Below, piece by piece: positions 9,453-51,917 of a stretch of 53,895 bases of DNA. Position numbers and translations under genes: made by a program. The DNA comes from an uncultured Acidobacteriota bacterium. Lineage in GTDB: Bacteria > Acidobacteriota > Thermoanaerobaculia > UBA5066. Positions within the stretch are counted from its first letter, which is position 1. Every line of letters starts with the position of its first letter. Location: NCBI GenBank assembly GCA_903845115.1, contig CAIMWE010000130.1, positions 1 to 53,895 of the forward strand, in the 5' to 3' direction. The notes beneath the pieces are model-generated. The model saw only the letters and a list, made by a program, of their open reading frames with translations, was not told the origin of the DNA and ran no database searches.

Positions 9453-9597
9453 GGTTCGGGCGTGATCGCCCCGGCAGCGAGAGTCCACGTGGACGGAACC
9501 CTGAACGTCCGGTCGTTGCGCCGGGGAGAAGAAGGTGACGCCGCAGGACCCGGCTCCCGAGCCGAATGAAACCGCCCCCTCCCTGGTCGCCGGGCCG

Positions 9598-12074: not shown

Positions 12075-12165
12075 TCAGACGAGCCTCCTCAGGACGACGA
12101 TTCCCGCGAGGCCGAGCAGCACCCCCAGCCCGATCATTCCCAAGGTTCCGAGGGTCGGTATCGAC
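12075..12165 (-). other. IPTL-CTERM sorting signal coding segment
   Basis: This segment encodes ESIPTLGTLGMIGLGVLLG followed by LAGIVVLRRLV: the IPTL motif, one hydrophobic helix and Arg-Arg. It is the C-terminal anchor of the giant protein and predicts a dedicated membrane protease elsewhere in the genome. Confidence 0.9.
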
Positions 12166-15100: not shown

Positions 15101-18100
15101 CCGCGTAGGCCGCGTCGGCCGACTTCCGGGCGACGACCGTACAGCCCCCTTCGCCCAGGCCGGTCAGCGTCGCGCCGGAGATCGAGCAGGGGCCGCTGAG
15201 CAGCTGGTAGGAAACGGCTCCGCCCCCGGAGCCGCCACCGGTCGTCAGGATGCTGTCTGTGTTGACAGTGATGGCCGTCGGCGCGGCGCTCACGCTCAGC
15301 GGCGTCTGCGCTGCGAGACCGACAGGAACGGTCCGAGCATCGGAGGTGGCGACGGCATACGTCCCGTCGGCCGCCTTGCTCACGTTGACGGCGCAGCTGC
15401 CGGCCCCGAGGCCCGTCAGGGCGCTGCCGGAGAGGGAGCAGGGGCCGCTCAGCAGGCTGTAGCTCAGGCTGCCCGTTCCCGAGCCGCCCGTACCGCCGAG
15501 CTGGCTGACGCCGTTGACCGTGAGGGCGCTCGGGTCCGCCTGGATCTCGAGCGTCGACTGGGGTGCCAGCCCCACCGTCACGGTAAAGGGCGCGGAGGTG
15601 GCGGCGGCGTAGCTGGAGTCCTCGGCCTTCGTGGCGCTGACCGAACAGCTCCCGGCGGCCAGGCCGTTCAGGGTGTCGCCCGAGATGGAGCAGGGACCGC
15701 CGAGCAGCGCGAAGGTGACGGCGCCGGAGCCGGAGCCCCCCGTGGCGCTCAGGATGGAGGAGCCGAGGACGGTGATCGTGCTGGCGTCCGCCAGCCCCGA
15801 CAGCGCCGACTGGGGCGCCAGGCCGACCGTGAGGGTGACCGGGCCGGAAGTGGTCGCCGCGTAGGTGGCGTCGGCCCCCTTGCTGGCGGTGACGACGCAG
15901 CTGCCGGCGCCCATGCCGCTCAGGGCGCTTCCCGAGAGCGAGCAGGGGCCGCCGACGAGCGCGTAGGTGACGCTTCCGCTGCCGGAGCCCCCGGTGGCGG
16001 CGAGGACGCTGCTGTCGCCGACGTTGACGACGGACGGAGTGGCGAGCAGCGACAGGCTCGACTGCGGCGCAAGGGCGACGGTCAGGGTGAGGGGGGCGGA
16101 AACGGCAGAGGCGTAGCTGGTGTCGGCCGCCTTCGTGGCCGTGATCCGGCAGCTGCCGGACCCGGTGCCGGTCAGCGTGCTGCCCGCCAGCGAGCAGGGC
16201 CCGTCGAGCAGCGTGTAGCTGACGCTCCCCGCCCCCGAGCCGCCGGTGGCGCCGAGCGCGCTGCTCCCGTTGACGCTGATGCTGGTCGGCGCCGCCGATA
16301 CCGACAGGGTGGACTGCGGCGAGAGGCCGACGGTCACCGTGATCGGGCTCGACGTCGCCTCTGCATACGCGAGGTCCGCTGCCTTGCTTGCCGTGACGGA
16401 ACAGCTCCCGGCTCCCGTGCCGGTCAGGCTCTCGACCTCGAGCGAGCAGGGGCCGCTGACCAGGGCATAGGTGACGGCCCCCGTTCCCGACCCCCCCGTG
16501 CTGGACAGGGTGCTGACGTCGTTGACGGCGATCGTCGACGGCGCTGCCAGGACCGACAGCGCCGACTGCGGCGACAGGCCGACCGTCACCGTCATCGGTG
16601 CCGACGTGACCGAGGCGTAGTTGCCTTCTGCCGCCTTGCTGGCAGAGACCGAGCAGCTGCCGGCGCTGGCGCTCGTCAGCCTGGTCCCGTCCAGGATGCA
16701 GGGCCCGCTCAGTACCTGGTAGGTCACTGCCCCACCGCCCGAGCCCCCCGTGGTCGTCAGCTGGCTCCACTCGCCGGTCTTGATGGTCGTCGGATCGGCC
16801 AGGACGGAGAGCGCGGTCTGGGGCGAGAGCCCGACGATGACGCCGATCGGGCTGGAGGTCGCGGCGCTGTAGGCGACCGACTCCGCCTTGCTCGCCGAGA
16901 CCGAGCAGGTGCCGACGCCGGTGCCGGTGAGCTGGTTGCCGACGAGGGTGCACGGGCCGCTGACCAGCGCGTAGCTGACCGCCCCCTCGCCCGAGCCGCC
17001 GCTGCTGCTCAGGATGCTGGCGCCGTTGACGCTGATCGTCGTCGGGCTGGCCGAGACGAACAACGCCGCCTGGGTATTGCGGCTGACGCTCACCGTGACC
17101 GGGTCGGACGTCGCCGCCGCGTAGACCGCGTCGGCCGCCTTGGTGGCGGTGACGGTACAGCTCCCGGCGCCGGTGCCGGCGAGGGTGCTGCCGCTGACCG
17201 TGCAGGGGTCCCCGCTCGCCACGGCATAGGTGACGGCGCCCCCGCCCGAGCCCCCCGTGCTGTAGAGCGAGCTGGCGCCGTTGACCTTGACGCTGGTCGG
17301 GCTGGCCGAGGCGACCAGCGCCGCCTGCGGACCGAGCGTGACCGTGACCGCGACCGGGCTCGACGTCGCCGCGCCGTAGGTGCCGTCGGCCGCCTTCGTG
17401 GCGGTGACGGCACAGCTCCCGGCGCCGGTGCCGGTCAATGTGCTGCCGCTGATCGAGCAGGGGTCCCCGTTCGCCACGGCGTAGCTCACCGCCCCGCTCC
17501 CCGAGCCGCCCCCGGTGCTCAGCAGGCTGGTGCCGTTGACGTGAACCGGGTTCGGTGCGGCCGACAGGGAGAGGACGCCCTGCGTGGCCGGACCGACGGC
17601 GATGGCGAGCGTCGCCGTCGCCAGGCCGCTCGTGGCGCCGGTGCCGGTGATGGTGTAGCTGATGGAGCTCTGGGCGGCGCTCGGCGTGCCGCTGACGACG
17701 CCGGTGCCCGAGTTGAAGCTCAGCCCGGTGGGCACCGCCGGAGCGATGCCGTACGTGACCGTTCCGACGAAGCTGCTGTTGGACGTCAGCGCCGCCGTCG
17801 GGGTCATGGCCGTCCCGGCCGTCGCCGTGATGGTCTGGCTCGAGGGAGTGAGCGCGGGGAGCGCCGGCGTGGCCGACGCACTGGCGCCGGCGCCCGTGCC
17901 GGCGGCGTTCGTCGCTTTCACCTCAAACGTGTAGCTCGTGCCGTTCGACAGCGGCGACACCGTGCAGGTGGTCGCGCCGGCGGTGGTGCAGCTGCCGCCC
18001 GGAGAACCGGTGACACTGTAGCCGGTGATGGCCGAACCACCGTTGCTCGTCGGCGCCGCCCAGCTGACGGTGACCTGGGCATTGCCGGCCGTCGCGCTGA

Positions 18101-21100
18101 CCGCCAGCGGCGCGCCGGGCACCGTGCGTGGCGTCACGCTCCCCGAGGTGCCCGCAGGGCCCGTTCCGATGCTGTTGGTGGCCTTCACGCCGAAGCTGTA
18201 CGCCGTGCCGTTCGTCAGGCCGGTGACGATGCAGTTCGTGGATGACGTGGTGCAGGTCTTGGTCGAATCCTGAACGGCGACGACCGTGTAGCTGGAGGCC
18301 GCCGGGGTATTGGCGCTCGGCGCGCTCCAGCTGACGGTGGCCTGGGCATTACCCGCCGCGGCCGAGACCGACTGCGGCGCACCGGGTATCGCACCCGGCG
18401 TCACGGAGGCGCTGGGGCTGCTGGGCGCGGAGGGACCGTGGGTGTTCGTCGCCACCACGGTGAAGGTGTAGGGAGTGCCGTTGGTCAGGCCGGTCACGGT
18501 GCAGCCGGTGCCGGAGGTCGTGCAGGTCTTGCTGCCGGAACTCGAGGTGGCCGTGTAGGCGCTGATCGTCGCGCCCCCGGTATTCGCGGGCGCCGCCCAG
18601 CTGACCGTGGCCTGCGTGCTCGCCGCCATCGCCGTCACGTCCGTCGGTGCGTCCGGGACGCCCAGCGGCACGACGCTGGCCGTGTCGGCCGGCCCGGCGC
18701 CGACGGCGTTGACCGCCCGGAGGCCGACGACGGCGGCGACCCCCTTCGTCAGGCCGGAGCTGATGGCGAGGGGGGACGAGGTCGAGACCGGATTGCGGGT
18801 GATCCAGCTGCCGGCGTTGATGCTGTACTCGTAGTTGGTGAGGGCCGAGCCCCCGGTCGCCCCCGCGCTGAAGGCGATCGACACCTGACCGAGGCTGCCT
18901 CCCGTCAATGCCGTGGCGCTGGTGATGGTTGGTGCACCGGGCGCGGTGGCGGGCGTGACGCTGACCGACGTGGAGGCGGCACCCGCGCCGGCCGCATTGA
19001 CGGCACGCAGGTAGACCGTGTACGAGGTGCCGTTGGTCAGGTTCGTAATGATGGCCGGAGTCGTCGCGGTCCCTGCCGAGGTCCAGGTTGTGCCATTCAG
19101 GCTGTATTCGTAGTCCGTCACCGGGTAGAGGCCGATGTCCCCGTTGTCGGCCGTCTGGGTCGGTGCCACGAAGGCGATCCTGGCCTGCTTGTCGGCGGGT
19201 GTCGCCACCAGCGACGTCGGCGCCTTGGGGCGGAGGTTGGCGATGGTGGCGCCGCTCGCGGTGTAGCCGAAGCCACCGCTGCCGGAGGTGTTGGTCGCCT
19301 GGACCCGGAAGAAATAGGTGCCGGCAGCAAGACCCGTGGCGGTGCAACTGAGCGACAAATTCGTGCCCGCACATCCGGTGGGCCCCGCGTAGCCGGTCGG
19401 CGGCGTGGTCGTCATCTGCACCGTGTAGCTCGAGATCGCTGCACCCCCGGTGTCGGGCGCGGTCCAGCTGACGGTCACGGTGCTCGCACCGCTGTTGGCG
19501 ACGGCCGTCACGGCCGCCGGGATATCGGGTGGATCGGCCACCGGCGTGACGCTGACAGCGCTCGACGCTATGCCGTTGCCCAGGGCGTTGACGCCGCGCA
19601 GCAGGATGCTGGAGGGCGACCCGTTCGTGAGACCGGTCACCACCACCGGGCTGGTGAAGCTGCCGGTCGAGGTCCAGCTCGACCCGGCATTCAGGCTGTA
19701 CTCGAAGCTCGTGACGGGCGAGCCTCCGTCGGCACCGGGGGTGAAGCTGATCGTCGCCCGTCCGTTGCCGGGGGTGGCGGCGAGGCCCGTCGGGGCGGCG
19801 GGCGTCCCGACCGCGATCGACGCGCTCGGGCCGGCGCCGATGGAATTGACCGCCCGCAGGAGAATGGTGTTCTGGCTGCTCAGCCCGCCGATGGTGAAGG
19901 CGTCGTTGAATACGTTGGCGGCAAGCCAGTTCGTACCGTCGAGGCTGTACTGATAGCCAAAGCCCAGCCCCGCCGGCGGGGTGAAGCTGATGGTCGCCTG
20001 GCCGGTGCCCGGTATCGTGGCCGCCAGGTTGGTGGGAGCGCCCGGCAGGGCTCCGACCGTCAGGTCCACCGCTGCGGTGCCGCTGCCAGCGGGATTGATG
20101 GCGGTCACGGTGTACTGCGCGGCGCCCGGACCCGATTGCTGGATGGTCAGATTGCCGATCCCCTGCTGGGAGATGGCTGACCCGGTCCTCGCCTTGAACA
20201 CGTGCTGCCAGCTGGAGCGATCCGCCGTCAGGTAGTCGTCCGGCAGCTGCACCTGATCGAAGATGCCTGTACTGCCGAGAGTCAACGTCAGCCGCCCGAG
20301 GGCGTCGATCTGCACCACCACTCTCGTTTTCGCGCCTGCCCAACCCATGTTGCTCGAGTAGGCCAGGACGCCATCCGACCCGGGAGTGGTCCCGGGGCTG
20401 CCGGACTTGGTGCCGTACATCACCCGGATGCCGGTGGCGCTGCTAGCGTTGCCGGCGTAGAGGTGGAACGCGATCGACAGACGGGTGCCGGCTCCCACCT
20501 CGCCGCCGGCGTTCGCGCCGTCGGGGTTGTCGGTGAAGCTGTAGCTCATCCCGTCCCCGGCGGGGTTAGGGTTGCTGACGTACATGTCGAAGCTGGTCCG
20601 GTAAGCCTGCGCGTTGACGCCGCTGCCGGCGCTTCCGAGAACGAAGAACGAGCCGGCTTGACTGTTCGAGGCAGGCGTCAATTCGACCCACGGGCCTGGC
20701 GACGACGACTTCCAGCTTGCGCTCCCGGTCGCGGTGGCGCCCTTCAGGTCGCTCGTGTCGAAGGTATTGGCGTACCACGACGCCAGTGCGCCCCCCGCGG
20801 GGCTGTTGACCGTCGGTGTGCCGCTGATGACGCCGGTCGTCGTGTCGAGCGTCAGTCCATCCAGAAGGGGTGGCCGGATGCTGAAGGTCGCCGCGGTGGC
20901 ACCGGTGTAGGCCGCCGAGGGCGTCAGCGCCGTTCCGGGCATTCCGGTCAGGGATTGCGTCGCCGGGCTCAGGCTCGGCACCGCGAGAGCGCTGACCGTG
21001 AGGGTGACCGTCGCCGTGGCGCTCACTCCGCCGCCGGTGGCGGTGATGGTGTACTGGGATTCCGCCTGGAGGGCGGTCGGGGTGCCGCTGATGACGCCAG

Positions 21101-24100
21101 TCGTCGTGTTGAAGGAGAGGCCCGCCGTCAGGCCGGTGGAGATGGCGAAGGTGGGCGCCGTGCTGAACCCGGCCGGCGTCAGCACCGCCGTCGGCGTCAG
21201 CGGCAGGTCCTTGGTGGCGGCGATGGTCTGCGTGGCGGGACTGAGCGCGGCAGACACGGCCAGCGACACGGTTGCGGTGGCCACGCCCGACGTGGAGCCG
21301 GTCCCCGTCACGGTGTACGTCGTTGCGAGCTGCGCCGTGACGGGCGTGCCGCTGACGACGCCGGTCGAGGTGCTCAGCGACAGGCCGCTGGGCAGGGCCG
21401 GGCTGACGGCGTAGCTCACCGTGCCGCCGAAGCCGCTGGGGGTGAACGCCGTGGTGGGGGTGATGGTGACTCCCGCGGTGCCGGTCACCGTCTGGCTGGC
21501 CGGACTGAGCGCCGGGGCTGCGGCTATGGCGATGCTGACCGCCGTGGTGGCCGTGCCGCTCGTCGCCCCGGTGCCGGTGATGGTGTAGGCGGCCGATGCC
21601 TGGCTCGCCGTCGGGGTCCCGCTGATGTCGCCTGTGCTGGTGTTGAGGCTCAGCCCCGTGGGCAGGCTCGGGCTGATGGCGTAGGTGACCACGCCGCCAA
21701 AGCCGATGGGCGTCAGCGCGGTGCTCGGCGTGATCGCGGTGCCGACCGTGCCGTTGAGCGTCTGCGTGCTCGGGCTGATGGAGGCGAGGTAGGTGAAGAG
21801 GCCGCTGCCGGTGGCGCTGCCGCCACCGGTGGTGACGATGACGTCTCGTGCTCCGGCGGTACCGGCCGGCGTGGTACAGGTGATCGAGGTCGCCGTGTTG
21901 GCGCTCAACGCCGTGCAGGCTGCACCTCCTATCGTCACGGCGATGGCGCCTGTCAGGTTGGTGCCGGTGATGGTCACGCTGGTGCCGCCGCCTGTCGGTC
22001 CGCTGGTCGGGTTGATGCCCGTGAGCGTCGGCGCCGCGAAAGAGTTCTTCAGCACCACGTCGTTGCCGTCACCTCCGGCGTAGGAGAGCACGTAGCTGAC
22101 GCCTCCCAGCGTCACCGTCGACCCCTCGGGCAGTCCGTTGAACGTGCCGACGACGGCACTGCTGCTTCTGTTGTCGATCAGGGTGTAGCTCGCAGAGGCG
22201 ACGAAGCCGGTCGCGCCGACGTTCAGCGTGAGCTTGGCCCCGCCCAGGTTGACGCTGCCGCCGCTGCCGATCACGACCTGGTCGTAGTTCGTCCCGGCGA
22301 CGGGAACCGCGACAGGATTGACGTCCAGCTTGACGGTGCTCGTGCCGTCCAGGGTCAGGGAGCCGAAGGTGAAGATGCCCGTCGGGATGCCGGGACTCGC
22401 CAAGCCCGGGGCGACGGTGGCCGCCGTCACGGTGACCGCGCCAAGCGATCCGTTACCCCCCAGCGTCCCGGCGGTGATCGAGCCCTTCACTGTCCCGGTG
22501 CCGTTCAGCATCTGGCTCCCGGTCCCCTGCTTGACGTAGGTCCCCGTACCCGTGATGCGGCCCGAGTAGATGGTGTTCGTGGAGTGGGTGCTCGTGAGCG
22601 TCGCGGACCCGAGCGCGATCTCGCTCGTTCTGGCGGTCCCGGTGCTCGTGAGTCCGGCCACGGTCTGGTTGAAGCCGTTCATGTCGAAGAGGCCGTCGTC
22701 GTAAACCGTGAGGATCTTGGTGGCCAGGAACTGGTCCGGGTAGGAGAGCCGGACCACGGCCGAGCCGGCGGTTCCGATGCCGTCCCCCACGACCAGACCG
22801 CCCGACACGGCCAGGCCGGCCGACCGGCTCAGCGTCAGCACGCCGTCGAGAAGGGTCGTCTGGGTGGCAGCCAGGTTGGCCTGGTCCAGCGTCGCGTTCG
22901 GGGAGCTGACCAGGAGGTAGCCGCTCGTCGGGGGGCTCCCGTCCGTGATGGTCGCCCCGGCCACCTGGGTGACGGAGACGCCAGAGTCGAGCCGGAGCTT
23001 CGAGGCCAAGGGTCGGGTCACCGGGGCGGTCACCGAGAGGGCGCCGGCGTCCGGCCCGCCGATTCGAACCGTCCCACCGTTCAGCATTGTTAGCTCGACC
23101 GCGGTGATCCCCAGCGCGCCAGAGGCCGTACCCAGCCCCAGGTCGATGGGACGATTGGCGGTCAGCGGCTTTACCCACAAGGTGAAGTTGGTGGGAGCCC
23201 TGAGGTTACTGTAGGCGAGGACGAGCTCGTCGGCGGTGACTGTGCAGTTGCCCCCCGCGCTCGCGACCGAGCCGCTGCTGCTCGCCTCGAAGGTGCCCGC
23301 CTCGATGCTGACCGGGCTCACGCCAATCGTTAAGAGCGACGCACCCGAGTAGCCCCCGCTCTTGAGGAATCGGACCGCCGTCTTGGCGGTCAGGACGACC
23401 GGGCCACCCGTGCTGGTGATGTACGTGACGTAGTCCATCACGATGGATCCCTGGGGAGCCAGGATGGTGACGCCATTGCCGCTGATGTCGGCATACCACC
23501 TCAGGTTGGTCACGTACGCGCCGAGCCGCACGTCGCCGGTGGTCGCAGTGATCGAGACGGCTCCCCCGGAGGACTCGACTGCGCGTGGATCCGTACCGAC
23601 CTTCATCACGTAGCCCACGACCCCGGTGCCGGCGACGATGGTGATGTCACCGGGCGCCTTGAAGGTCTCGTTGATGTTCTGGATGAAGAGGGTGCCGGTC
23701 GTGCTGAAGCCGATGGCGCCGGAGGTCTTGACCTGCACGCCGATGGTCGTGGCTGTCGTGTAATCGGGGGGTAGGGTCGTCACCCCGCCCAGGATCACGT
23801 CCCCGGTGTTGGCGACCTGGATGTCGCCGGTGACGGTGTTCAGCTCGATGTTCCCGGCTGCGGTGTCGAGCGGGTTGGCGGACGTCCCGATGCCGTTGGT
23901 CCCGAGGAGCTGGAGCTTGGGCACGGTCACGTTGGACGAGCCGGTCTGGGTGCTGCCGACGGACCCCACGACGGCCGTGACGATGTCGCGGACCTGGAGC
24001 TGGTTGAGAGTGAGCGTTCCGCCGCTCTTGATGTCGACGGCAAAGAGCTTGGTCGGCTTGTTGACCCCGGTGAAAGTGAGAGCGCTCGCCGCACCTGCCA

Positions 24101-24503
24101 GGAGGTCGATGGAGAGCTTCGAGACCGACGAAGATGTCAGGTTGATGGTCGCCGTGCTGGAGGTCGCGGGAGTGCCACTGCCACCGCTGTAGGAGAGGGC
24201 GCCTCCGGCCGCCGTAGAAGCGGCATCAAACGTCCCGCTGCCGAGCGTCAGCGCGAGGTTCCCGGACCCGTTGACGCTGACGGTCAGCTGGCCGTCTCCG
24301 TCCACCGTCTGCTCGGCCAGGGCCAGCGTGGAGGTCCCCGAGGTCCAGGTGAGCTTGATCGACGACGCGGCCAGGGCCACCGGCGCGGCGAGGAGGCCGG
24401 AGGCAAGGAGCACGAGGACGGCCGCGAGCCGGGCAACGGGGCCATGGCCGGCGGGGCCCGACGAGGGAGCGGGGGGGACCAGGGGTGCCTCGAGGTGCTT
24501 CAC
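12075..24503 (-). CDS. Giant IPTL-CTERM surface protein (4,142 residues), mosaic adhesin
   Basis: GTG start, then a Sec signal (about 20-46, VARLAAVLVLLASGLLAAPVA). Regions in order: beta-helix-like, haemagglutinin-type repeats (about 47-770) including an autotransporter-type repeat (near 650-705, GGNGSLGAVTV); an IPT/TIG domain (about 820-904); four putative Ig (He_PIG) domains (about 905-1485), the fourth interrupted by a lectin-like insert; eight fibronectin type III domains (about 1484-2213); a fifth He_PIG; 20 copies of an ~83-residue Ig-like repeat (about 2308-4007), nearly all with two Cys (GPCSL..., GSC.V.ATK); a Big-1-like domain; and the tail SIPTLGTLGMIGLGVLLGL then VLRRLV. That tail is IPTL-CTERM, a sorting signal with a Pro-Thr-Leu motif, transmembrane helix and basic end. 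The protein is predicted to be exported, processed and displayed for adhesion or biofilm. Minus-strand and plus-strand long frames overlapping it are shadows of the repeats. Confidence 0.93.
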   Translation of the reverse strand: MKHLEAPLVPPAPSSGPAGHGPVARLAAVLVLLASGLLAAPVALAASSIKLTWTSGTSTLALAEQTVDGDGQLTVSVNGSGNLALTLGSGTFDAASTAAGGALSYSGGSGTPATSSTATINLTSSSVSKLSIDLLAGAASALTFTGVNKPTKLFAVDIKSGGTLTLNQLQVRDIVTAVVGSVGSTQTGSSNVTVPKLQLLGTNGIGTSANPLDTAAGNIELNTVTGDIQVANTGDVILGGVTTLPPDYTTATTIGVQVKTSGAIGFSTTGTLFIQNINETFKAPGDITIVAGTGVVGYVMKVGTDPRAVESSGGAVSITATTGDVRLGAYVTNLRWYADISGNGVTILAPQGSIVMDYVTYITSTGGPVVLTAKTAVRFLKSGGYSGASLLTIGVSPVSIEAGTFEASSSGSVASAGGNCTVTADELVLAYSNLRAPTNFTLWVKPLTANRPIDLGLGTASGALGITAVELTMLNGGTVRIGGPDAGALSVTAPVTRPLASKLRLDSGVSVTQVAGATITDGSPPTSGYLLVSSPNATLDQANLAATQTTLLDGVLTLSRSAGLAVSGGLVVGDGIGTAGSAVVRLSYPDQFLATKILTVYDDGLFDMNGFNQTVAGLTSTGTARTSEIALGSATLTSTHSTNTIYSGRITGTGTYVKQGTGSQMLNGTGTVKGSITAGTLGGNGSLGAVTVTAATVAPGLASPGIPTGIFTFGSLTLDGTSTVKLDVNPVAVPVAGTNYDQVVIGSGGSVNLGGAKLTLNVGATGFVASASYTLIDNRSSSAVVGTFNGLPEGSTVTLGGVSYVLSYAGGDGNDVVLKNSFAAPTLTGINPTSGPTGGGTSVTITGTNLTGAIAVTIGGAACTALSANTATSITCTTPAGTAGARDVIVTTGGGSATGSGLFTYLASISPSTQTLNGTVGTAITPSTALTPIGFGGVVTYAISPSLPTGLSLNTSTGDISGTPTASQASAAYTITGTGATSGTATTAVSIAIAAAPALSPASQTVTGTAGVTITPTTAFTPSGFGGTVSYAVSPALPSGLSLSTSTGVVSGTPVTAQLATTYTVTGTGSTSGVATATVSLAVSAALSPATQTIAATKDLPLTPTAVLTPAGFSTAPTFAISTGLTAGLSFNTTTGVISGTPTALQAESQYTITATGGGVSATATVTLTVSALAVPSLSPATQSLTGMPGTALTPSAAYTGATAATFSIRPPLLDGLTLDTTTGVISGTPTVNSPAGGALASWYANTFDTSDLKGATATGSASWKSSSPGPWVELTPASNSQAGSFFVLGSAGSGVNAQAYRTSFDMYVSNPNPAGDGMSYSFTDNPDGANAGGEVGAGTRLSIAFHLYAGNASSATGIRVMYGTKSGSPGTTPGSDGVLAYSSNMGWAGAKTRVVVQIDALGRLTLTLGSTGIFDQVQLPDDYLTADRSSWQHVFKARTGSAISQQGIGNLTIQQSGPGAAQYTVTAINPAGSGTAAVDLTVGALPGAPTNLAATIPGTGQATISFTPPAGLGFGYQYSLDGTNWLAANVFNDAFTIGGLSSQNTILLRAVNSIGAGPSASIAVGTPAAPTGLAATPGNGRATISFTPGADGGSPVTSFEYSLNAGSSWTSTGSFTSPVVVTGLTNGSPSSILLRGVNALGNGIASSAVSVTPVADPPDIPAAVTAVANSGASTVTVSWTAPDTGGAAISSYTVQMTTTPPTGYAGPTGCAGTNLSLSCTATGLAAGTYFFRVQATNTSGSGGFGYTASGATIANLRPKAPTSLVATPADKQARIAFVAPTQTADNGDIGLYPVTDYEYSLNGTTWTSAGTATTPAIITNLTNGTSYTVYLRAVNAAGAGAASTSVSVTPATAPGAPTITSATALTGGSLGQVSIAFSAGATGGSALTNYEYSINAGSWITRNPVSTSSPLAISSGLTKGVAAVVGLRAVNAVGAGPADTASVVPLGVPDAPTDVTAMAASTQATVSWAAPANTGGATISAYTATSSSGSKTCTTSGTGCTVTGLTNGTPYTFTVVATNTHGPSAPSSPSASVTPGAIPGAPQSVSAAAGNAQATVSWSAPSANTPAASSYTVVAVQDSTKTCTTSSTNCIVTGLTNGTAYSFGVKATNSIGTGPAGTSGSVTPRTVPGAPLAVSATAGNAQVTVSWAAPTSNGGSAITGYSVTGSPGGSCTTAGATTCTVSPLSNGTSYTFEVKATNAAGTGAGASASATPALPALTPSSQTITATAGTAMTPTAALTSNSSFVGTVTYGIAPAVPTGLSFNSGTGVVSGTPSAAQSSISYTITGTGATSGLATATLAIAVGPATQGVLSLSAAPNPVHVNGTSLLSTGGGSGSGAVSYAVANGDPCSISGSTLTGTGAGSCAVTATKAADGTYGAATSSPVAVTVTLGPQAALVASASPTSVKVNGASSLYSTGGSGGGAVTYAVASGDPCTVSGSTLAGTGAGSCTVTATKAADAVYAAATSDPVTVSVSRNTQAALFVSASPTTISVNGASILSSSGGSGEGAVSYALVSGPCTLVGNQLTGTGVGTCSVSASKAESVAYSAATSSPIGVIVGLSPQTALSVLADPTTIKTGEWSQLTTTGGSGGGAVTYQVLSGPCILDGTRLTSASAGSCSVSASKAAEGNYASVTSAPMTVTVGLSPQSALSVLAAPSTIAVNDVSTLSSTGGSGTGAVTYALVSGPCSLEVESLTGTGAGSCSVTASKAADLAYAEATSSPITVTVGLSPQSTLSVSAAPTSISVNGSSALGATGGSGAGSVSYTLLDGPCSLAGSTLTGTGSGSCRITATKAADTSYASAVSAPLTLTVALAPQSSLSLLATPSVVNVGDSSVLAATGGSGSGSVTYALVGGPCSLSGSALSGMGAGSCVVTASKGADATYAATTSGPVTLTVGLAPQSALSGLADASTITVLGSSILSATGGSGSGAVTFALLGGPCSISGDTLNGLAAGSCSVSATKAEDSSYAAATSAPFTVTVGLAPQSTLEIQADPSALTVNGVSQLGGTGGSGTGSLSYSLLSGPCSLSGSALTGLGAGSCAVNVSKAADGTYAVATSDARTVPVGLAAQTPLSVSAAPTAITVNTDSILTTGGGSGGGAVSYQLLSGPCSISGATLTGLGEGGCTVVARKSADAAYAETTSGSIVVTSGLSAQSPLSLLADPTSISSGGRSALGTSGGSGTGVVSYSLLSGPCSLSGSLLTGIAAGSCSVAATKEADTRYAAATSAALPVTVGLTPQPTLTLTADPATINVTGSSTLSTSGGAGSGLVSYGVVSGPCSVSGSLLTGTGPGICSVEATKAADTTYASATSAPVTVTVGLAPQSSLTLLASPTTIDVNGTSALATTGGSGTGTVTYVLVGGPCSLSGSTLTGLQRGSCTVTATKAADATYASATSPPVTVTVGLAPQSSLALLASPTTVWINATATLSTTGGSGTGAVTYALVDGPCSLSASTLTGLQLGSCSVTATKAADVAYAQATSAAATVTVELAPQMPLAVVPSPTWIAAGGASTLTTTGGSGTGAVTYALVDGPCTLSGATLTALQKGSCWVTGTKAADATYAQVTSAPATVAVELIPQTPLTVRSEPSMLDLGPTLAGQGGSGSGRILQANPRFDGVLAVTGGSGTGQVFYTLLGGPCRLTGITLTGLDRGSCSVAATREADEVYARVTSEPVTVTVGLVPQSALALLADPSTVAVHGTGTLISTGGSGTGAVTYALVGGPCALSGATFTGIAAGSCSFTATKEADVTYATATSSPITITVGQSPQATLTLFASSGRIAANGTSALTTTGGSGSGVVTFSLIGGSCSLSGSTLTGLRAGPCDVSATKAADATYAEASAAPATVTVILAPQQALAASASPASIPVAGTSNLGSSGGSGGGAVTFSLAGGPCSLSGSTLTGLAAGSCVFTATKAEDAVYTQATSAPATVNVALSTQATLVLTATPSTVPVLSSALLATTGGSGGGLVTFALTSGSCSLSGNRLAGLSAGSCVVTASKAADGSYASATSSPITVTVGVGTASQLAFTTNPSATAMAGAAWAQQPVVTAQDASGNTDPSFNTPVILAIATGTGTLTCTTNPVRPVAGVATFSGCKVDAVGTFTLKATSGSFTNSTTNPSVVIVAESIPTLGTLGMIGLGVLLGLAGIVVLRRLV
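12480..17585 (-). repeat. Twenty tandem ~250 bp units encoding Ig-like repeats
   Basis: Counting from the protein's centre to its C-terminus, 20 units share the pattern L..A.P..I.V.G.S.L...GGSG.G.V.Y.L..GPCSLSG, then LTG...GSC.VTATKAAD..YA.ATS.P.TVTVGLAPQ. Units are diverged at most positions but keep the paired Cys. One unit (about 13560-13800) is enlarged by a second partial GGSGSG stretch. Such arrays commonly change length by recombination. Confidence 0.9.
20128..20797 (-). other. Lectin-like domain nested inside an Ig-like domain of the giant protein
   Basis: About 220 residues (WYANTFDTSDLKGATATG ... SFFVLGSAGSG ... DGMSYSFTDNPDG ... GNLTIQQSGPG) have the look of a legume-lectin/concanavalin beta-sandwich. 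They sit between TTGVISGTPTVNSPAG and AAQYTVTAINPAGSG, the two halves of one He_PIG domain. Confidence 0.6.
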
Positions 24504-45275: not shown

Positions 45276-46340
45276 TCAAGGGCTGGTATCGCTCTTGCCG
45301 GTGCGTCTCTTCTCGAGGTAGCGCTCGACCCGCTTTCGCGTCGCGGCCGTGCATCGGTAGAGGCCCGTCACCGAAGTCCGCCTCACGACTTCCTCCATGA
45401 GCCAGTTCTGACGGGTCGGGGCCGAGATTCCGAGGGCCGCCAGTTCCTTGGAGGTGACCGTCGTTCCAGGGCCGAGCGATGGCACCGTCCGGAGGGGGGC
45501 CGCCTCGCGCTTTCCGGGCTGCGTTCTTCGGGGGGCTCGAGCGGCAGGCGCGATCGCCAAGGGCGGGGGGACCTTCTTCGCTATCGACGGGCGGGCCCTC
45601 CTGGACGGTGGGACGACGACCTTCTCCTCCTCCACGTCGATGCCGAAGAGCGCGGAGAGCCCGCTCGCGTCGAGACCGAGCGCCTTCCCGGCTTCCGGGA
45701 CGCCCGCCGCGACCGGAGCCGCCGCCGCCTCGGTGATCAGCTCTTCGTGGTCGACGCCTCGAAGGAGGAAGAGCAGCTCAGGCTGCTCGTCGAGGCGCAC
45801 GCCCACCCCGTAGAGCACGGCCGCCAGGTGCTTGCAGAGAGCGGCCCAGTCGGGACACGAGCATTCCATCCGGATCTCTTTCGGAGAAGGGAAGAGGCCA
45901 GTCCCTTTTCTCGTGACGACGTCCATCACTTCGCTCGCGAGCTTTCCGCGGAGCAGCTCCACGAGAGAGCCGATTCGCCCGGCCGACTCCTTCCGGATCG
46001 CGGCCCACTGCCGGGCCGGGACGGGAGCAATCGAGATCTGGATCTCGTAGAGGTCAGAGCCCGCGACGAAGGCGTCAATCCGCCCGGCCGTCAAGCCGAG
46101 ATGGAGGACCGAGCCGTTGCGGAGGTAGGTCCTGCCCCGCGGGAGGCGGTTCGAATAGTCGCTGTAGGCCTCGAGGTTGGCGCACCACGCTTTGCCCCAG
46201 AAGCTCTGGGCGATGGCCCGGCCGCCGGTCTGGACAGGGGAAGCGGAGAAGCCCTTCTTTCCGAGCTTGGCGAGCTTGCTCGCCGACCGCTGCCGCTTGA
46301 CCGCGGCCGGGACGTACGGACCCCATGAGTACCACGACAT
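45276..46340 (-). CDS. SWIM zinc-finger protein
   Basis: This 354-residue protein starts at an ATG sharing its A with the SNF2 stop (TGATG). The N-terminal part (about 1-140) has WYSWGPYVPAAVKRQRS and FWGKAWCANLEAYSDYSNRL, typical of SWIM proteins paired with SNF2 ATPases. The SWIM motif CxCxnCxH is in MECSCPDWAALCKHLAAVLY (about 157-170). After a Pro/Arg-rich linker (about 240-300), a C-terminal segment (TSKELAALGISAPTRQNWL) looks like a helix-turn-helix. It likely binds DNA or protein to guide the ATPase. Translational coupling supports a joint complex. Confidence 0.92.
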   Translation of the reverse strand: MSWYSWGPYVPAAVKRQRSASKLAKLGKKGFSASPVQTGGRAIAQSFWGKAWCANLEAYSDYSNRLPRGRTYLRNGSVLHLGLTAGRIDAFVAGSDLYEIQISIAPVPARQWAAIRKESAGRIGSLVELLRGKLASEVMDVVTRKGTGLFPSPKEIRMECSCPDWAALCKHLAAVLYGVGVRLDEQPELLFLLRGVDHEELITEAAAAPVAAGVPEAGKALGLDASGLSALFGIDVEEEKVVVPPSRRARPSIAKKVPPPLAIAPAARAPRRTQPGKREAAPLRTVPSLGPGTTVTSKELAALGISAPTRQNWLMEEVVRRTSVTGLYRCTAATRKRVERYLEKRRTGKSDTSP

Positions 46341-49063
46341 CACGCCTCCTCGAGCGCGCTCGCCACGTCGAGCGAGACGAGCTTCAGTATCTCGTCGTTG
46401 GTCATCTCCGTGACGAGGGTCTCCGCGCCCCCGTCGAGCAGCTCGCGAGAGAGCGCCCGCTTCCCTTCGATCAGAGCGTCGATCCGCTCCTCCACCGTCC
46501 CACGGCAGACGAGCTTGTGGACGAGGACGTTTCGCTTCTGCCCGATCCGGAAGGCCCGGTCGGTCGCCTGGTCCTCGACGGCCGGGTTCCACCACCGGTC
46601 GAAATGGATGACGTGGCTGGCGGCGGTGAGGTTGAGGCCCGTCCCTCCCGCCTTCACCGACAGGACGAAGAAGGGAGGGCCCTCCTCGGCCTGGAAGGCG
46701 TCGACGAGCTGTCTCCGTTTGCCCACCGGGGTCTGGCCGTGAAGCACGAGCCCCTCGCGCCCGAAGAGACCGGACAGGAATCGAGCGAGAGGTCCGGTCG
46801 TCTCGCGGAACTGTGTGAAGACGAGCGCCTTCTCCTGGCGGGAGGCGATCTCCTCGCAGAGCGCCGCCAGCCTGCCGAACTTCCCGCTCTCGGCCGGGTC
46901 CCATCCTCCGTCGCCCGTCCAGTGCGACGGGTGGTTGCAGATCTGCTTGAACCGCATCAGGAAGGCCAGCACGACGCCCCGCCGCTGCATTCCGTCGAGG
47001 GTCTCGAGGAGGCGGCGCAGCTCGTCGACGGACCGCTGGTAGAGCGCAGCCTGGGCCTTCGTGAGCGGGCAGAACGCCTTCATCTCCGTCTTGTCCGGAA
47101 GGTCGGCGATGACGCTCCGGTCGGTCTTCATCCGCCTCAGGATGTAGGGCCTGACGAGCGACCGGAGCGGTCCGTAGTCCGGAGGCGTCCGGGACGCCAT
47201 CCGCTTCGAAAGCTGGGTGAACTGCGCGGCCGACCCGAGGAGACCTGGCGAGAGGAAGTCGAAGATCGACCAGAGGTCCGAGAGTCTGTTCTCGACCGGG
47301 GTGCCGGTCAGGGCGATCCGGATCCGGCCATTGAGCGTCTTGGCCGCACGGGTCTGCCTGGCGTCGGGGTTCTTGATCGCCTGGGCCTCGTCGAGGCAGA
47401 CGGCGGACCAGGTCGCCTCCCTCAGCCAGGGGAGCCGGAGGAGCGAGCCGTAGGTGGTGATGACGACGTCCCTTTTCGGCAGGGCTTTCGCCTTCAGGGC
47501 CGCCAGCTCTTCGCGGGGCGTGGCCGACGAGTGGGCGACGAAGACCGAGAGGCTCGGAGAGAAGCGGTCGATCTCCGCCTGCCAGTTCGCGATGAGGGAT
47601 GCCGGGACGACGAGGAGGAAGGGCCCCTTCTCGCCTTGCCGCCTGAGCGCGAGGAGAAGGCCGAGGACCTGGATGGTCTTCCCCAGCCCCATGTCGTCGG
47701 CCAGGCAGGCTCCGAGGCCGAGGCGGCTCAACGTGAAGAGCCACCTCACGCCGGTCTCCTGGTAGGGACGGAGCTGGGCTGCCAGGCCCTCGCCCGGGTC
47801 TGGCAAGGCACCGGAGGGCTCCTTCATTTCCGCCAGGACCTTTCGCAGCCAACCCCCCGCCTCCACGCGCGACCAGGCGGACGCCGGCTCGTCGGCGCCC
47901 GCGTCTCCTCCGGCGGCGGCGCCGAGCGATACCCCGGAGAGGAGTCTCATCGCCTCGGCGAAGGGGACCCCTTCCTTCATCGCCTTCTTCAGGTCTCGCC
48001 ACCGGCCCAGGACCTCGGCCAGGCGCGTTCGGTCCACCTCGACCCACTTCCCCCGGAGGAAGGCCAGCCCATCCGCTCCCGCGAGGAGCCGATCCCATTC
48101 GGCCGGATCGAGCGTCTCCCCGTCGAGCGTCGGTTCGACCGAGAAATCGAGCATCGCCCCGAGCCCCAGGGCCGCGGGGGCCTCGCTCCCGACCGTCACC
48201 GTGACCGAGGCGCGCCTGGGACGCCGCGGGTTCCACCAGTCCGGGACCCGCACCACGAGGCCGCATTCCTCGAGGACCGGGATGTCGCGCAGCAGGACGT
48301 GCGCCTCGCGGACGGTGAAGGCGATGGGGTGGAACACCTCGCCCGACTCGAGAAGCGTGGCGACGAGAGAGCTGCGCCCCGCCGCGCGGTGGAGAGGGGC
48401 CAGAAGCGCCAGAAGCCGCTCCTTCTCCCGCGCGCCGGCGTACTCTTCGAGCGCCCGGCCGAGCGGGAGGTGCTTGACCCTGGCGGCTCCCGCGAGACGC
48501 GCGGTGTACGTGGCCAGGAACGCGAACGGCGTCCGTTCGTCTCCCTTCTTCTCGGCGAGGTGAAACCAGACACGGCCGACGAGGTTCCAGACGTCGTTCT
48601 TGGAACGGAGCCACGAGCCGACGTCGCCTTTCCATGCGTGCAGCTCGCTCTCGGCGGCGTCCTTGGTCAGGTTCCAGAGGTCTTCGAGCACCTCCGAGGT
48701 CAAGTACTCGCCCCCGGACATCGGGGGAGCTGCTGCTCCACGCGATTCGAGAAGGCCGGATGGCGGAGCGACCTGGAGAGGGGCCTTCGGATCCAGCTCC
48801 GGGACCGCGCAGAGCCTCTCCATGAAGAGGTGCCCGAAGTCGCGCCAGTACGCGAGGACCGGGGGAAGGACGGCCGCGACCTCCACCGCTCCCAGATGCA
48901 GCAGCCCTTCGCCCGGGCCGCGATGGAACGCCCCGGCAATTCTCGAGCCGACTTCCGGCGGAAGGAGAGCGGCCCCCGGCTCTCCCGGGACGACGCGAAG
49001 ATGCCCGCCCGGCGAGATGCCGAGCGAGAGGCTCGCCGGCCCGGTAGCCTCCTCCTCCGCCAT
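46340..49063 (-). CDS. SNF2/Swi2 family DNA-dependent ATPase
   Basis: The 907-residue protein has an N-terminal bacterial SNF2 accessory region (about 1-400, with DPAEWDRLLAGADGLAFLRG). The two RecA lobes follow: motif I DDMGLGKTIQVLGLL (near 458), Ia VVPASLIANWQ, motif II LDEAQAIKNPD (DEAQ rather than DEAH, near 557), III ALTGTPVENRLSDLWSI, then lobe 2 with LVFTQFRETTGPLARFL, SVKAGGTGLNLTAASHVIHF and VI QATDRAFRIGQ. Such enzymes translocate on duplex DNA and remodel nucleoprotein; bacterial versions with SWIM partners have poorly defined roles in repair or transcription. It is the first gene of a two-gene operon with the SWIM protein. Confidence 0.95.
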   Translation of the reverse strand: MAEEEATGPASLSLGISPGGHLRVVPGEPGAALLPPEVGSRIAGAFHRGPGEGLLHLGAVEVAAVLPPVLAYWRDFGHLFMERLCAVPELDPKAPLQVAPPSGLLESRGAAAPPMSGGEYLTSEVLEDLWNLTKDAAESELHAWKGDVGSWLRSKNDVWNLVGRVWFHLAEKKGDERTPFAFLATYTARLAGAARVKHLPLGRALEEYAGAREKERLLALLAPLHRAAGRSSLVATLLESGEVFHPIAFTVREAHVLLRDIPVLEECGLVVRVPDWWNPRRPRRASVTVTVGSEAPAALGLGAMLDFSVEPTLDGETLDPAEWDRLLAGADGLAFLRGKWVEVDRTRLAEVLGRWRDLKKAMKEGVPFAEAMRLLSGVSLGAAAGGDAGADEPASAWSRVEAGGWLRKVLAEMKEPSGALPDPGEGLAAQLRPYQETGVRWLFTLSRLGLGACLADDMGLGKTIQVLGLLLALRRQGEKGPFLLVVPASLIANWQAEIDRFSPSLSVFVAHSSATPREELAALKAKALPKRDVVITTYGSLLRLPWLREATWSAVCLDEAQAIKNPDARQTRAAKTLNGRIRIALTGTPVENRLSDLWSIFDFLSPGLLGSAAQFTQLSKRMASRTPPDYGPLRSLVRPYILRRMKTDRSVIADLPDKTEMKAFCPLTKAQAALYQRSVDELRRLLETLDGMQRRGVVLAFLMRFKQICNHPSHWTGDGGWDPAESGKFGRLAALCEEIASRQEKALVFTQFRETTGPLARFLSGLFGREGLVLHGQTPVGKRRQLVDAFQAEEGPPFFVLSVKAGGTGLNLTAASHVIHFDRWWNPAVEDQATDRAFRIGQKRNVLVHKLVCRGTVEERIDALIEGKRALSRELLDGGAETLVTEMTNDEILKLVSLDVASALEEA

Positions 49064-49195: not shown

Positions 49196-50968
49196 CTACA
49201 GCTCCTTGAACCCCCAGAAGGGAAAGTCCAGCACGTATTCCCCGATCTTGCCGGGACTGTTCTCCCTGCTGGCGACCAGCCACAGCGAGCTCTTGCGCTC
49301 CTGCGTGCTGAGGGGGTCGAGCAGGTTCCAGTTGGGCTGCAGGATGATCGCGTTGTCGGCGCTGTACTCGATATCGCCGGATTCCTTGAAGGAGCCCATG
49401 TCCGGCATCCCGCTATAGCTACCTTCCACGCCGCGGGACAGCTCCGAGACCACCAGGAACGCGACGCGCTGCTCGTCGCGGATGGACTCCATGTGCCGCA
49501 GCCATTCGTCGATGCCGGTGCGCCGCTCGGAGAGGCTCTTGAACGGCAGCTTGTGCAGGCTGTCGACGACGACCAGGCACTTGTCGAGCCGGGTCTCGTG
49601 CTTGATGAAGTCGATCTGCCGCCGCATGATCTCCGGACTCAGCTTCCGGTCCGTGACGACCCGGAAATAGAGCAGCATCTTCCTCAGCTCGGCCTGCGCC
49701 CGGTCGAACCGGGCGGCGGTGTCGGCGTCGGGCTCCGGCTCGCGGAGCGCCTCTTCCGAGAGCCTGCTCAGGCGGCAGAGAGTCCGGAGGTAGATCTTCT
49801 GGCGGCCGTTCTCGAAGTCGTAATAGATCACCGGTACGCCCTGGCGGGCCGCCTCGGTCGAGACCTGCATGAAGAAGGAGGACTTTCCTGCCTTGGGCTG
49901 CCCCCCCATGATGTTGATGCCCCGGATGCCGTTGAGGGCCTGGTCCATTCCCTCGAAGCCGGTCGGAACGCCCAGGACGTTCTTGCCCTTGTCCTTCTCG
50001 AGGGCCTCCAGGAAGTTCAGGTGCTCCCGCTCCGGGGAGGTGAACGGGGAGAAGGCCCTCGAGCTCTTGATCATGCCCGCGACGGCCGCGCCGAATTCGG
50101 TCCCCTTCTCCCTGGCCAGCTGCAGGAGGTGGAAGTCGCGTTTCACATTGGACGGCCAGTTGAGGATCCGCACCTTGAACCCGAGGCTGGTGGCCAGGCT
50201 GCGGGCGGCGACCTGGGCTTCGGGGGTGTTGTTGAAGACGATGAGCACGTGCTTGACGAAAGCGAAGCGTTCGAGCTGCAGGACCTCGAGCGCCGACAGG
50301 CTGGGCACGGCGATGCACGGGTAGCCGAGCTCCTTGAGGGTGAGGAGATTCCGCTCGCCGTCGGTGATGATGAGGGCTCCGTTCTCGCAGCGGTCGATCT
50401 CCTCGAGGTTGAAGACCTGGAACTCGTGCCCGTAGAACTTGTCGTCCCCCATCCAGAAATGGTCCGTCTCGACGCCGGGTGAGACGCAGCGGGCCGCATA
50501 GCAGTTGCCGTCCTCGAGGAAGTACGGGAAGACCAGATACCGGCCATTGAAGCCGATCCGCATCTCGTCCACGGCCCCTCTGGATATGCCGTACGTGGCG
50601 AAGGAGGCGTACTGCTCCTCGGACATGCCGGCCTGGTACTTCTTCACGTCGGAGTTCATGGTCTTGCCCGGGAAGACGATGTTGCGCACGAAGGCCGACC
50701 GATCGGGATCGGACCCCGGCACGTGCATCGGGTCGATCCCGCGCAGCCGTCCGAAGTGCGTGGCAAAGCCGCCGGGCTTGCACCGATCGAGGCACTTGAA
50801 ATGGCCGTAGAAGAAGCTGTCGGGATCGAGATCGACGACCAACGTCCCGGGGACCGCGTCCTTGGCGGGCTCGCAGAACGGGCAGGGCGCCTGGACCGTC
50901 TGACCCACCGCTCGGGCTTCCGGAAGATGCCGCAGGTAGAACTGCCTGACAGGGTCGGTTGCGTTCAT
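49196..50968 (-). CDS. TWINKLE/T7 gp4-like primase-helicase with degenerate TOPRIM
   Basis: Order in 590 residues: a DnaG-type zinc ribbon (C29, C32, C59, C63 in PCPFC and FKCLDRC); a primase N-terminal region (LVFPYFLEDGNCYAAR); a TOPRIM-like domain (about 197-275: ALIITDGERNLLTL, then VLIVFNNTPEAQVAA); and a DnaB/RecA-type helicase (about 330-590) with Walker A GGQPKAGKSS (355-364), DFENGRQ, Walker B CLVVVDSLHK (D469) and LVVSELSRG. This is the layout of phage gp4 and TWINKLE. The acidic DxD of TOPRIM is replaced by Asn/Thr, so primer synthesis is doubtful while helicase motifs are intact. It may come from a phage or have a repair role. No phage genes adjoin it. Confidence 0.87.
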   Translation of the reverse strand: MNATDPVRQFYLRHLPEARAVGQTVQAPCPFCEPAKDAVPGTLVVDLDPDSFFYGHFKCLDRCKPGGFATHFGRLRGIDPMHVPGSDPDRSAFVRNIVFPGKTMNSDVKKYQAGMSEEQYASFATYGISRGAVDEMRIGFNGRYLVFPYFLEDGNCYAARCVSPGVETDHFWMGDDKFYGHEFQVFNLEEIDRCENGALIITDGERNLLTLKELGYPCIAVPSLSALEVLQLERFAFVKHVLIVFNNTPEAQVAARSLATSLGFKVRILNWPSNVKRDFHLLQLAREKGTEFGAAVAGMIKSSRAFSPFTSPEREHLNFLEALEKDKGKNVLGVPTGFEGMDQALNGIRGINIMGGQPKAGKSSFFMQVSTEAARQGVPVIYYDFENGRQKIYLRTLCRLSRLSEEALREPEPDADTAARFDRAQAELRKMLLYFRVVTDRKLSPEIMRRQIDFIKHETRLDKCLVVVDSLHKLPFKSLSERRTGIDEWLRHMESIRDEQRVAFLVVSELSRGVEGSYSGMPDMGSFKESGDIEYSADNAIILQPNWNLLDPLSTQERKSSLWLVASRENSPGKIGEYVLDFPFWGFKEL

Positions 50969-51086
50969 GGAGGTTGTCCCTTCGTAGTGGTCGTCGACAC
51001 CGGGCGAGGGCCAGATTGCCCCCCTCCCGCCCTCGTGTCATCAAGAAAGGTCAGAGCGCATCCTCCGGGGCTCGACAAGGGGCTTA

Positions 51087-51358
51087 GTACCCCGCTCCCT
51101 AAATGCGATGACGTGCGTTCGGAGCGCCGCGCGGCCAGAGGCGAGGCGTCGCGACGAACGTGGCCGTCCGACCTCGGAGGAGCGATAACAAAGCAGATGG
51201 CCGCGCGCCGCCCGAACCCAGGGGGCGCAAGGCGGCTGCGGGCGATTTCTGCGTTGCGCCTCCTCGGCGGAGAGCCAGCTCCAGCCTGCGTCGGCGCGCC
51301 TTGAAAGCGCCTCGCAGGCGCCATGCGCGCCCGTCACTGTATTTGTAGAGCGGGGTAC
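51087..51358. mobile_element. MITE-like element with terminal inverted repeats and TTA duplication
   Basis: The 272 bp element begins GTACCCCGCTC and ends GAGCGGGGTAC, with further imperfect inverted pairing to about 31 bp inward (AAATGCGATGACG versus AAATACAGTGACG). TTA stands directly on both sides (51084-51086 and 51359-51361), as expected of a 3 bp target duplication. No transposase is encoded. The interior is GC-rich and has long but featureless frames. It lies 28 bp beyond the end of the broken phoH gene. Confidence 0.7.
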
Positions 51359-51385
51359 TTAGGTGATCGAAGCGACCGTCGGAGG

Positions 51386-51917
51386 CTAGAGGAGAGTGCT
51401 GGCCAGCTCGGCGAGGGCGCTCCGCTCTCCCTTGACGAGGTTCACGTGGGCGAAGAGCTCCTGGTCCTTCATCCGGTCGATCGAGAGCGTCAGGCCGTTC
51501 GACTGGCTGTCGAGGTACGGGGTGTCGATCTGCTGGATGTCCCCCGTGAAGACGACCTTCGATCCCTCGCCGGCGCGCGCGCAGCTCGTCCGCCAGGGCC
51601 AGGATCCGGTGGTCGGGCTTGCTCTGGGCGAAGGCCTGGGTGACCCTCGAGGGGCCGGATCCGCCCACCTCCACGTAGAGCCGCCCGCGGTCGGGCCCGA
51701 GGGGTAGCCCGTCGGTCAGCGATCCGTCCCCGGCCAGCCGGTCGAGCTCGCGGATGAACTCCCGCGCCTCGAGGTTGATCAGGTCGTTTCCCCGCTTGAA
51801 GCGGTCCAGCTCCTCGAGGACGACGATCGAGAGGGCGACGTCGTGCTCCTTGAAGTTGTAGATACAGGTGTGATCGAAGAGGACGACATTCGTGTCGACC
51901 ACGAATAGCTTGTTCAT
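51386..51917 (-). pseudogene. PIN-PhoH (PhoH2-type) gene with most of the ATPase deleted and a frameshift
   Basis: From ATG 51917 the PIN domain reads FVVDTNVVLFDHTCIYNF, VVLEELDRFKRGND and [15 protein letters not shown], typical of the N-terminus of ~450-residue PIN-PhoH proteins. At a GC run (GCGCGCGCG, about 51580-51590) homology jumps, in another frame, to the last ~60 residues of the PhoH ATPase: [53 protein letters not shown], stop at 51386. Walker A and most of the ATPase (about 250 residues) are absent. PhoH2 proteins are RNA helicase/RNase toxins or stress proteins; this copy can make at most the PIN part. Confidence 0.87.

Follow-up and report, generated by a model that had tools for sequence, protein, structure and literature searches.

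The locus and its primase-helicase gene

The window, by which we mean the whole 53,895-nucleotide stretch analysed here from a contig of an uncultured Acidobacteriota bacterium, carries on its minus strand, a strand not given in the original prediction, a gene for a TOPRIM-dead primase-helicase (49196-50968). According to the ORF list and the translation, its reading frame is uninterrupted over 590 amino acids, starting with ATG at 50968 and stopping at 49196. The predicted protein begins with a zinc ribbon (residues 24-68; 50765-50899, minus strand like all parts and motifs of the gene given below). It continues with a primase RNA-polymerase domain fold assigned from an AlphaFold model and fold match (residues 100-305; 50054-50671), within which secondary structure and alignment delimit a TOPRIM core (residues 196-285; 50114-50383), and ends with an SF4 helicase domain of the DnaB_C type placed by Pfam PF03796 and by its fold (residues 310-590; 49199-50041). 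This C-terminal DnaB_C domain is the only one recognised by Pfam (88.6 bits against a cut-off of 27, E = 5.6e-25), and a match to PHROG 239 (DNA primase/helicase) spans residues 26-558. The primase half had no PDB sequence match by phmmer; its fold was found by structure search instead.

On one side of the gene, an SNF2 ATPase and its SWIM-finger partner occupy 45276-49063. The SNF2 domain scores highly against the ZorD and DpdE models, as is expected of most SNF2 proteins. On the other side, 115 bp upstream of the gene, lies a MITE-like 283-bp repeat (51083-51363) whose ends form imperfect inverted repeats of 46 nt, CTTAGTACCCCGCTC...GAGCGGGGTACTTAG. Copies of it stand at more than 20 sites across this genome, often at contig ends, and several contain about 80 additional bases in the middle of the element. 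Beyond the repeat, a PIN-PhoH reading frame (51387-51917) has an intact PIN domain followed by a frame change into the last ~64 PhoH residues, the ATPase middle being missing; this is the mark of a pseudogene or, alternatively, of a deletion made in assembly. Elsewhere in the window, a minus-strand ORF of 4142 amino acids (12075-24503) with fn3, He_PIG and TIG domains, many near-identical repeats of ~85 amino acids and a hydrophobic tail probably encodes a giant surface protein, and a DDE transposase (PF01609; 496-2175) marks an insertion sequence close to the start of the contig.

The catalytic acids of the primase half are replaced. In an alignment that included T7 gp4 and plasmid/phage TOPRIM-DnaB proteins, and for which the T7 numbering was checked, D203-G-E205-R-N207 (degenerate TOPRIM motif 1 in place of E-G-E-x-D; 50348-50362) falls on E157-G-E159-x-D161 of T7 gp4, and N246-N-T248 (degenerate motif 2 in place of D-x-D; 50225-50233) falls on D207-M-D209. 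The original prediction of lost TOPRIM acids beside an intact zinc ribbon and intact helicase motifs was correct in this respect. The motifs it quoted are exact in the translation (ITDGERN at 201-207, VFNNTPEAQ at 244-252, the CPFC...C...C zinc ribbon and GGQPKAGKS) and correctly placed against T7 gp4. A check of the 81-member family alignment for misaligned acids nearby revealed none: position 207 (T7 D161) is never Asp (Asn in 73 members, Ser in 6, Gln or Gly in the remainder), position 248 (T7 D209) is never Asp or Glu, and position 246 (T7 D207) is Asp in only four. The third acidic site of TOPRIM is likewise unconserved in the family. What persists of motif 1 is E205, invariant throughout, and position 203, which is Glu in 55/81 and Asp in 21/81.

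The rest of the primase half is well preserved. All 81 sequences keep the zinc cysteines C29, C32, C59 and C63. Conservation of the TOPRIM core (50%) is on par with that of the zinc-binding part, and R256, K265, R267 and W271 within the core are invariant or nearly so across the 81 members, which together argues that the core has been retained for some function. These four residues would suit a role in nucleic acid binding. In AlphaFold models, the N-terminal 309 residues form a complete primase fold (pLDDT 92.9; 86.7 for the full chain). Residues 100-309 of the model match the RNA-polymerase domain of T7 primase with Z 19.7 (188 residues aligned, 3.0 A), and the primase half scores Z 15.5-18.7 against DnaG and 17.5 against human TWINKLE; the full-length model matches the folds of T7 gp4 and human TWINKLE over their whole length. 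As judged from alignment and model, the primase scaffold is kept and its catalytic acids are gone. From these residues we infer that priming activity has been lost.

The helicase half retains the Walker A motif (P358-K-A-G-K-S363; 49880-49897), the catalytic glutamate E386 of motif H1a (T7 E343; 49811-49813), the Walker B aspartate D469 (T7 D424; 49562-49564) and R568 at the arginine-finger position (T7 R522; part of A566-S-R568, 49265-49273), all located by alignment. Each of GKS, E386, D469, E509, K528, A566 and R568 is present in 81/81 members. This invariance extends to two substitutions at NTP-sensing positions: E509 (49442-49444) replaces the H3 sensor, which is His465 in T7 and Gln in DnaB, and A566 replaces the lysine that contacts the gamma-phosphate in T7 and DnaB. 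The segments DFENGRQKIY and DSLHKLPFK are also strongly invariant. With E509 and A566, the protein might hydrolyse NTPs weakly or in a changed manner, or work as a switch-like ATPase and not as a processive motor. The fold of this half matches DnaB and G40P best (Z ~30), followed by T7 gp4 (~26) and RadA structures (~22.7).

Family distribution and transfer into the window genome

A scan of 84,980 species genomes yielded 118 stretches with relatives, the best 80 of which were examined. All 80 are full length and 49-74% identical to the window protein, and those assigned to a group belong mostly to Desulfobacterales and Desulfobulbales. Together with the E-value of the DnaB_C domain, these orthologs exclude a chance resemblance. 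Entries titled only 'Deltaproteobacteria bacterium' were labelled Myxococcota, which we took to be an artefact of naming. Of 395 genomes sampled from the phylum of one relative, 17 are carriers, a count that includes the window genome as well as G405, from which the nearest relative, L003, comes. The gene is always present in single copy, so that a patchy distribution goes along with deep, lineage-like inheritance. Neither the protein nor the profile found a relative in 2.9 million viral contigs, and matches to phages and plasmids are remote (22-29% identity).

The loss of the acids had been regarded as an oddity of one gene. It turned out to be a property of the whole family and is partly common to a divergent relative, L120 of genome G436 (8304-10061, minus strand; 608 bits). 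In this protein, TOPRIM reads EGEEN and RND, meaning that the acids are partly lost, and one cysteine of the zinc ribbon is substituted. Motif 1 at its fourth site and DxD at its first Asp had thus changed before L120 split off, unless the changes arose twice. Since the same acids are missing in about eighty relatives, the family is apparently an old and functional chromosomal lineage, found mainly in part of the Desulfobacterota, and not one decayed gene. It is apparently undescribed in the open-access literature that we searched for bacterial TWINKLE-like or inactivated-TOPRIM helicases.

The window genome is an outlier in this distribution: no other carrier turned up in its family (14 genomes), its class (149) or the sample drawn from its phylum (396), each count including the window genome. 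A carrier frequency of 4% in the donor phylum against zero relatives in 395 indicates that the host phylum differs from that of the donors. In the tree, the window gene is nested among Desulfobacterales sequences in a clade with 100% support, and similarity to Desulfobacterota loci is confined to the ORF. It is a single gene acquired horizontally from Desulfobacterota. The transfer must be old enough for complete adjustment, as codon usage is fully host-like: it correlates with that of host genes at r = 0.977, compared with 0.45-0.72 for the genes of the relatives, and GC3 is 0.917 in a host whose genes range from 0.85 to 0.95 (0.48-0.73 in the relatives). Since the transfer, 74% protein identity and every motif have been kept. 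Taken together with the codon adjustment, this makes retention under selection the natural reading.

Mis-binning of the contig was rejected on account of the genome-wide occurrence of the 283-bp repeat, the native SNF2/SWIM flank and the host codon usage. An origin of the present copy from a prophage or phage was rejected on the lack of relatives in viral contigs and the remoteness of phage and plasmid matches. In line with the prediction of a free-standing chromosomal gene, no phage genes surround the window gene or its orthologs, and no phage match exceeds 29% identity.

Gene neighbourhoods and relation to known primase-helicases

No operon is common to the 80 ortholog loci (best 80 of 118), the neighbours varying by clade. 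They include enolase, alanyl-tRNA synthetase, a HerA-type ATPase, a DnaE-type polymerase, DnaJ, TPR and unknown genes, i.e. mostly housekeeping or unrelated functions. Further neighbours are, as we read them from sequence, presumably TrmFO-like and Maf-like. A recurring defence partner was not found among the neighbours. An acyl-CoA-synthetase-like gene stands beside none of these 80 orthologs, two AMP-binding matches being weak (22% identity), and a search for a shared regulatory dyad upstream of them returned A/T-rich dyads and nothing more.

A role shared with the SNF2/SWIM and PIN-PhoH genes, as originally proposed, is not supported. An SNF2 or SWIM gene resembling those of the window occurs at 0/80 ortholog loci (best 80 of 118). 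The host family has the SNF2/SWIM pair as native genes: the SNF2 protein has a full-length ortholog of 61% identity, accompanied by a SWIM gene, in a family member lacking a primase-helicase of the window type, and a 72% paralog, L108, carried by a different contig, C286, of the window genome. The primase-helicase gene, in turn, is an import absent elsewhere in the class, and the PIN-PhoH neighbour is out of frame and has no ATPase middle. The L108 paralog breaks off near residue 772, where the end of an IS3-type-looking transposase adjoins on the opposite strand.

A different situation is found in the Desulfatitalea clade (L042, L046, L051 and L055). Here, the gene lies downstream of a DnaE2-like cassette on the same strand, either directly after the DnaE2-like gene (L051) or separated from it by a DnaJ gene (L046 and L055; DnaE and DnaJ by Pfam). 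From its sequence, we take this cassette to comprise a LexA-like repressor, a DUF72-like protein, a Y-family polymerase and a DnaE2-like polymerase, an arrangement which suggests that the gene may be under SOS control in that clade. Presence of a second DnaE showed no clear association with the gene (about 9/22 carriers versus about 5/20 non-carriers by our reading). Apart from this one clade, there is no conserved neighbour pointing to replication or repair.

T7 gp4 resembles the family in length and in joining a zinc domain, a TOPRIM primase domain and an SF4 helicase within a single chain. It differs in being phage-encoded and in keeping all TOPRIM acids, and identity is only about 15-18%. 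Moreover, the second pair of zinc ligands is CX3C in the family instead of CX2C, with a long insertion between the pairs. In a tree of helicase domains computed without TWINKLE sequences, with long branches and an uncertain root, the family groups with plasmid/phage TOPRIM-DnaB proteins (support 94/86), and T7 gp4 forms a separate clade with the T7-like cyanophage S-SRP01 (100/100). A T7-specific origin can thus be rejected moderately firmly, and the family appears to descend from plasmid/phage-type TOPRIM-DnaB stock. Proteins of this type (PHROG 239, PHROG 19) are nearest both by sequence and in the tree, and the FKESG motif is common to them and the family. Examples are those of the Deltaproteobacteria Smac51 plasmid (UQZ91326.1), Lactobacillus pJBL2 and Streptococcus phage phi-SsuFJZZ32_rum, with 22-25% identity. 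In contrast to the chromosomal family, they are replicon-borne and keep both EGExD/DxD (EGEID, DNDD) and the sensor lysine. With DnaB, the family shares the RecA-type motor and the DnaB_C domain; DnaB has neither zinc nor primase half, and its sensor Gln and Lys are Glu and Ala in the family.

TWINKLE is the only replicative helicase of mitochondrial DNA, whereas the window host also has DnaB and DnaG, each encoded by its own separate gene. Metazoan TWINKLE has a gp4-type architecture and has lost primase activity but retained the N-terminal half (PMC9860392, PMC7231222). The originally proposed parallel to TWINKLE therefore stands for the architecture, the dead primase and the retained N-terminal half. 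It does not extend to the zinc ribbon, as TWINKLE has also lost zinc binding (PMC9860392) and the bacterial family keeps the cysteines in 81/81 members, nor to the helicase domain, which groups away from T7 gp4.

A putative accessory ring helicase

We favour, as the probable though by no means certain function, that of a chromosomal accessory ring helicase of the DnaB/gp4 type (SF4) whose inert primase half grips single-stranded DNA. The protein would assemble as a hexamer, and the ring would move along single-stranded DNA by NTP hydrolysis. In human TWINKLE, the dead primase half binds single-stranded DNA and grips it against slipping of the ring (PMC9860392). By analogy, the inert zinc-ribbon/TOPRIM half might serve as a non-priming grip on single-stranded DNA that loads or steadies the ring. 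As the host has its own DnaG and DnaB, the protein is probably accessory and not the main replicative helicase; it may perform an occasional cellular task, for example fork restart or the processing of gaps or lesions. A more specific version is a bacterial counterpart of TWINKLE, i.e. an ancient chromosomal helicase that lost priming, kept the scaffold and loads itself beside DnaB for fork restart or translesion synthesis. We consider this a tentative proposal with perhaps one chance in a few.

Somewhat less probable still is a non-helicase function, in which the RecA fold would act as an NTP-dependent DNA clamp or sensor, similar to RadA or KaiC, and the zinc and TOPRIM parts would recognise a DNA or RNA structure. 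The invariant substitutions E509 and A566 would fit such a switch ATPase, as would the match to RadA structures (Z about 22.7) and an invariance of DFENGRQKIY and DSLHKLPFK beyond the ordinary need of a helicase. Yet none of Walker A, the catalytic Glu, Walker B or the arginine finger has been lost, and DnaB and G40P are the better matches (Z about 30).

We regard it as unlikely that the family is a domesticated replication protein acting as a dominant-negative primase-helicase against invading phages or plasmids. Its plasmid/phage-type TOPRIM-DnaB descent and patchy distribution (17/395) would be compatible with such a role. The matches to anti-phage systems in PADLOC, however, are marginal (mads_8, 20.7 bits; RTasDnaG-like, a DnaG-like DRT model, 16.9 bits), cover the generic ATPase and include no confident match with partners. 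Furthermore, the mostly housekeeping neighbours (enolase, alanyl-tRNA synthetase, TrmFO, Maf, DnaE and others) and the single-copy, lineage-like inheritance speak against it.

Priming through other residues, or another metal-dependent activity of the substituted TOPRIM, is more improbable again: the surviving part of motif 1 (E205 and the acidic residues at 203), the fold and the intact zinc ribbon speak for it, but the equivalents of T7 D161 and D209 are missing in 81/81 and that of D207 in 77/81 members, and the third acidic site is unconserved. That the window copy is a functionless, decaying transferred gene or sits on a mis-binned contig is very improbable, for against its absence from all relatives of the host, the broken PIN-PhoH neighbour and the transposon-like repeat nearby stand an intact ORF with all motifs, fully host-like codon usage and a contig tied to the genome by the repeat and native SNF2/SWIM genes.

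Proteins that have given up priming but kept the primase scaffold are known chiefly from animal TWINKLE, where the role of the inactive half is only beginning to be understood. An independent, conserved bacterial case that keeps its zinc ribbon would make this role testable in free-living cells having both DnaB and DnaG, and the two invariant changes of ATP-sensing residues are directly testable as well. Such a case would show that ring helicases of the mobile-element type can be taken over for cell functions.
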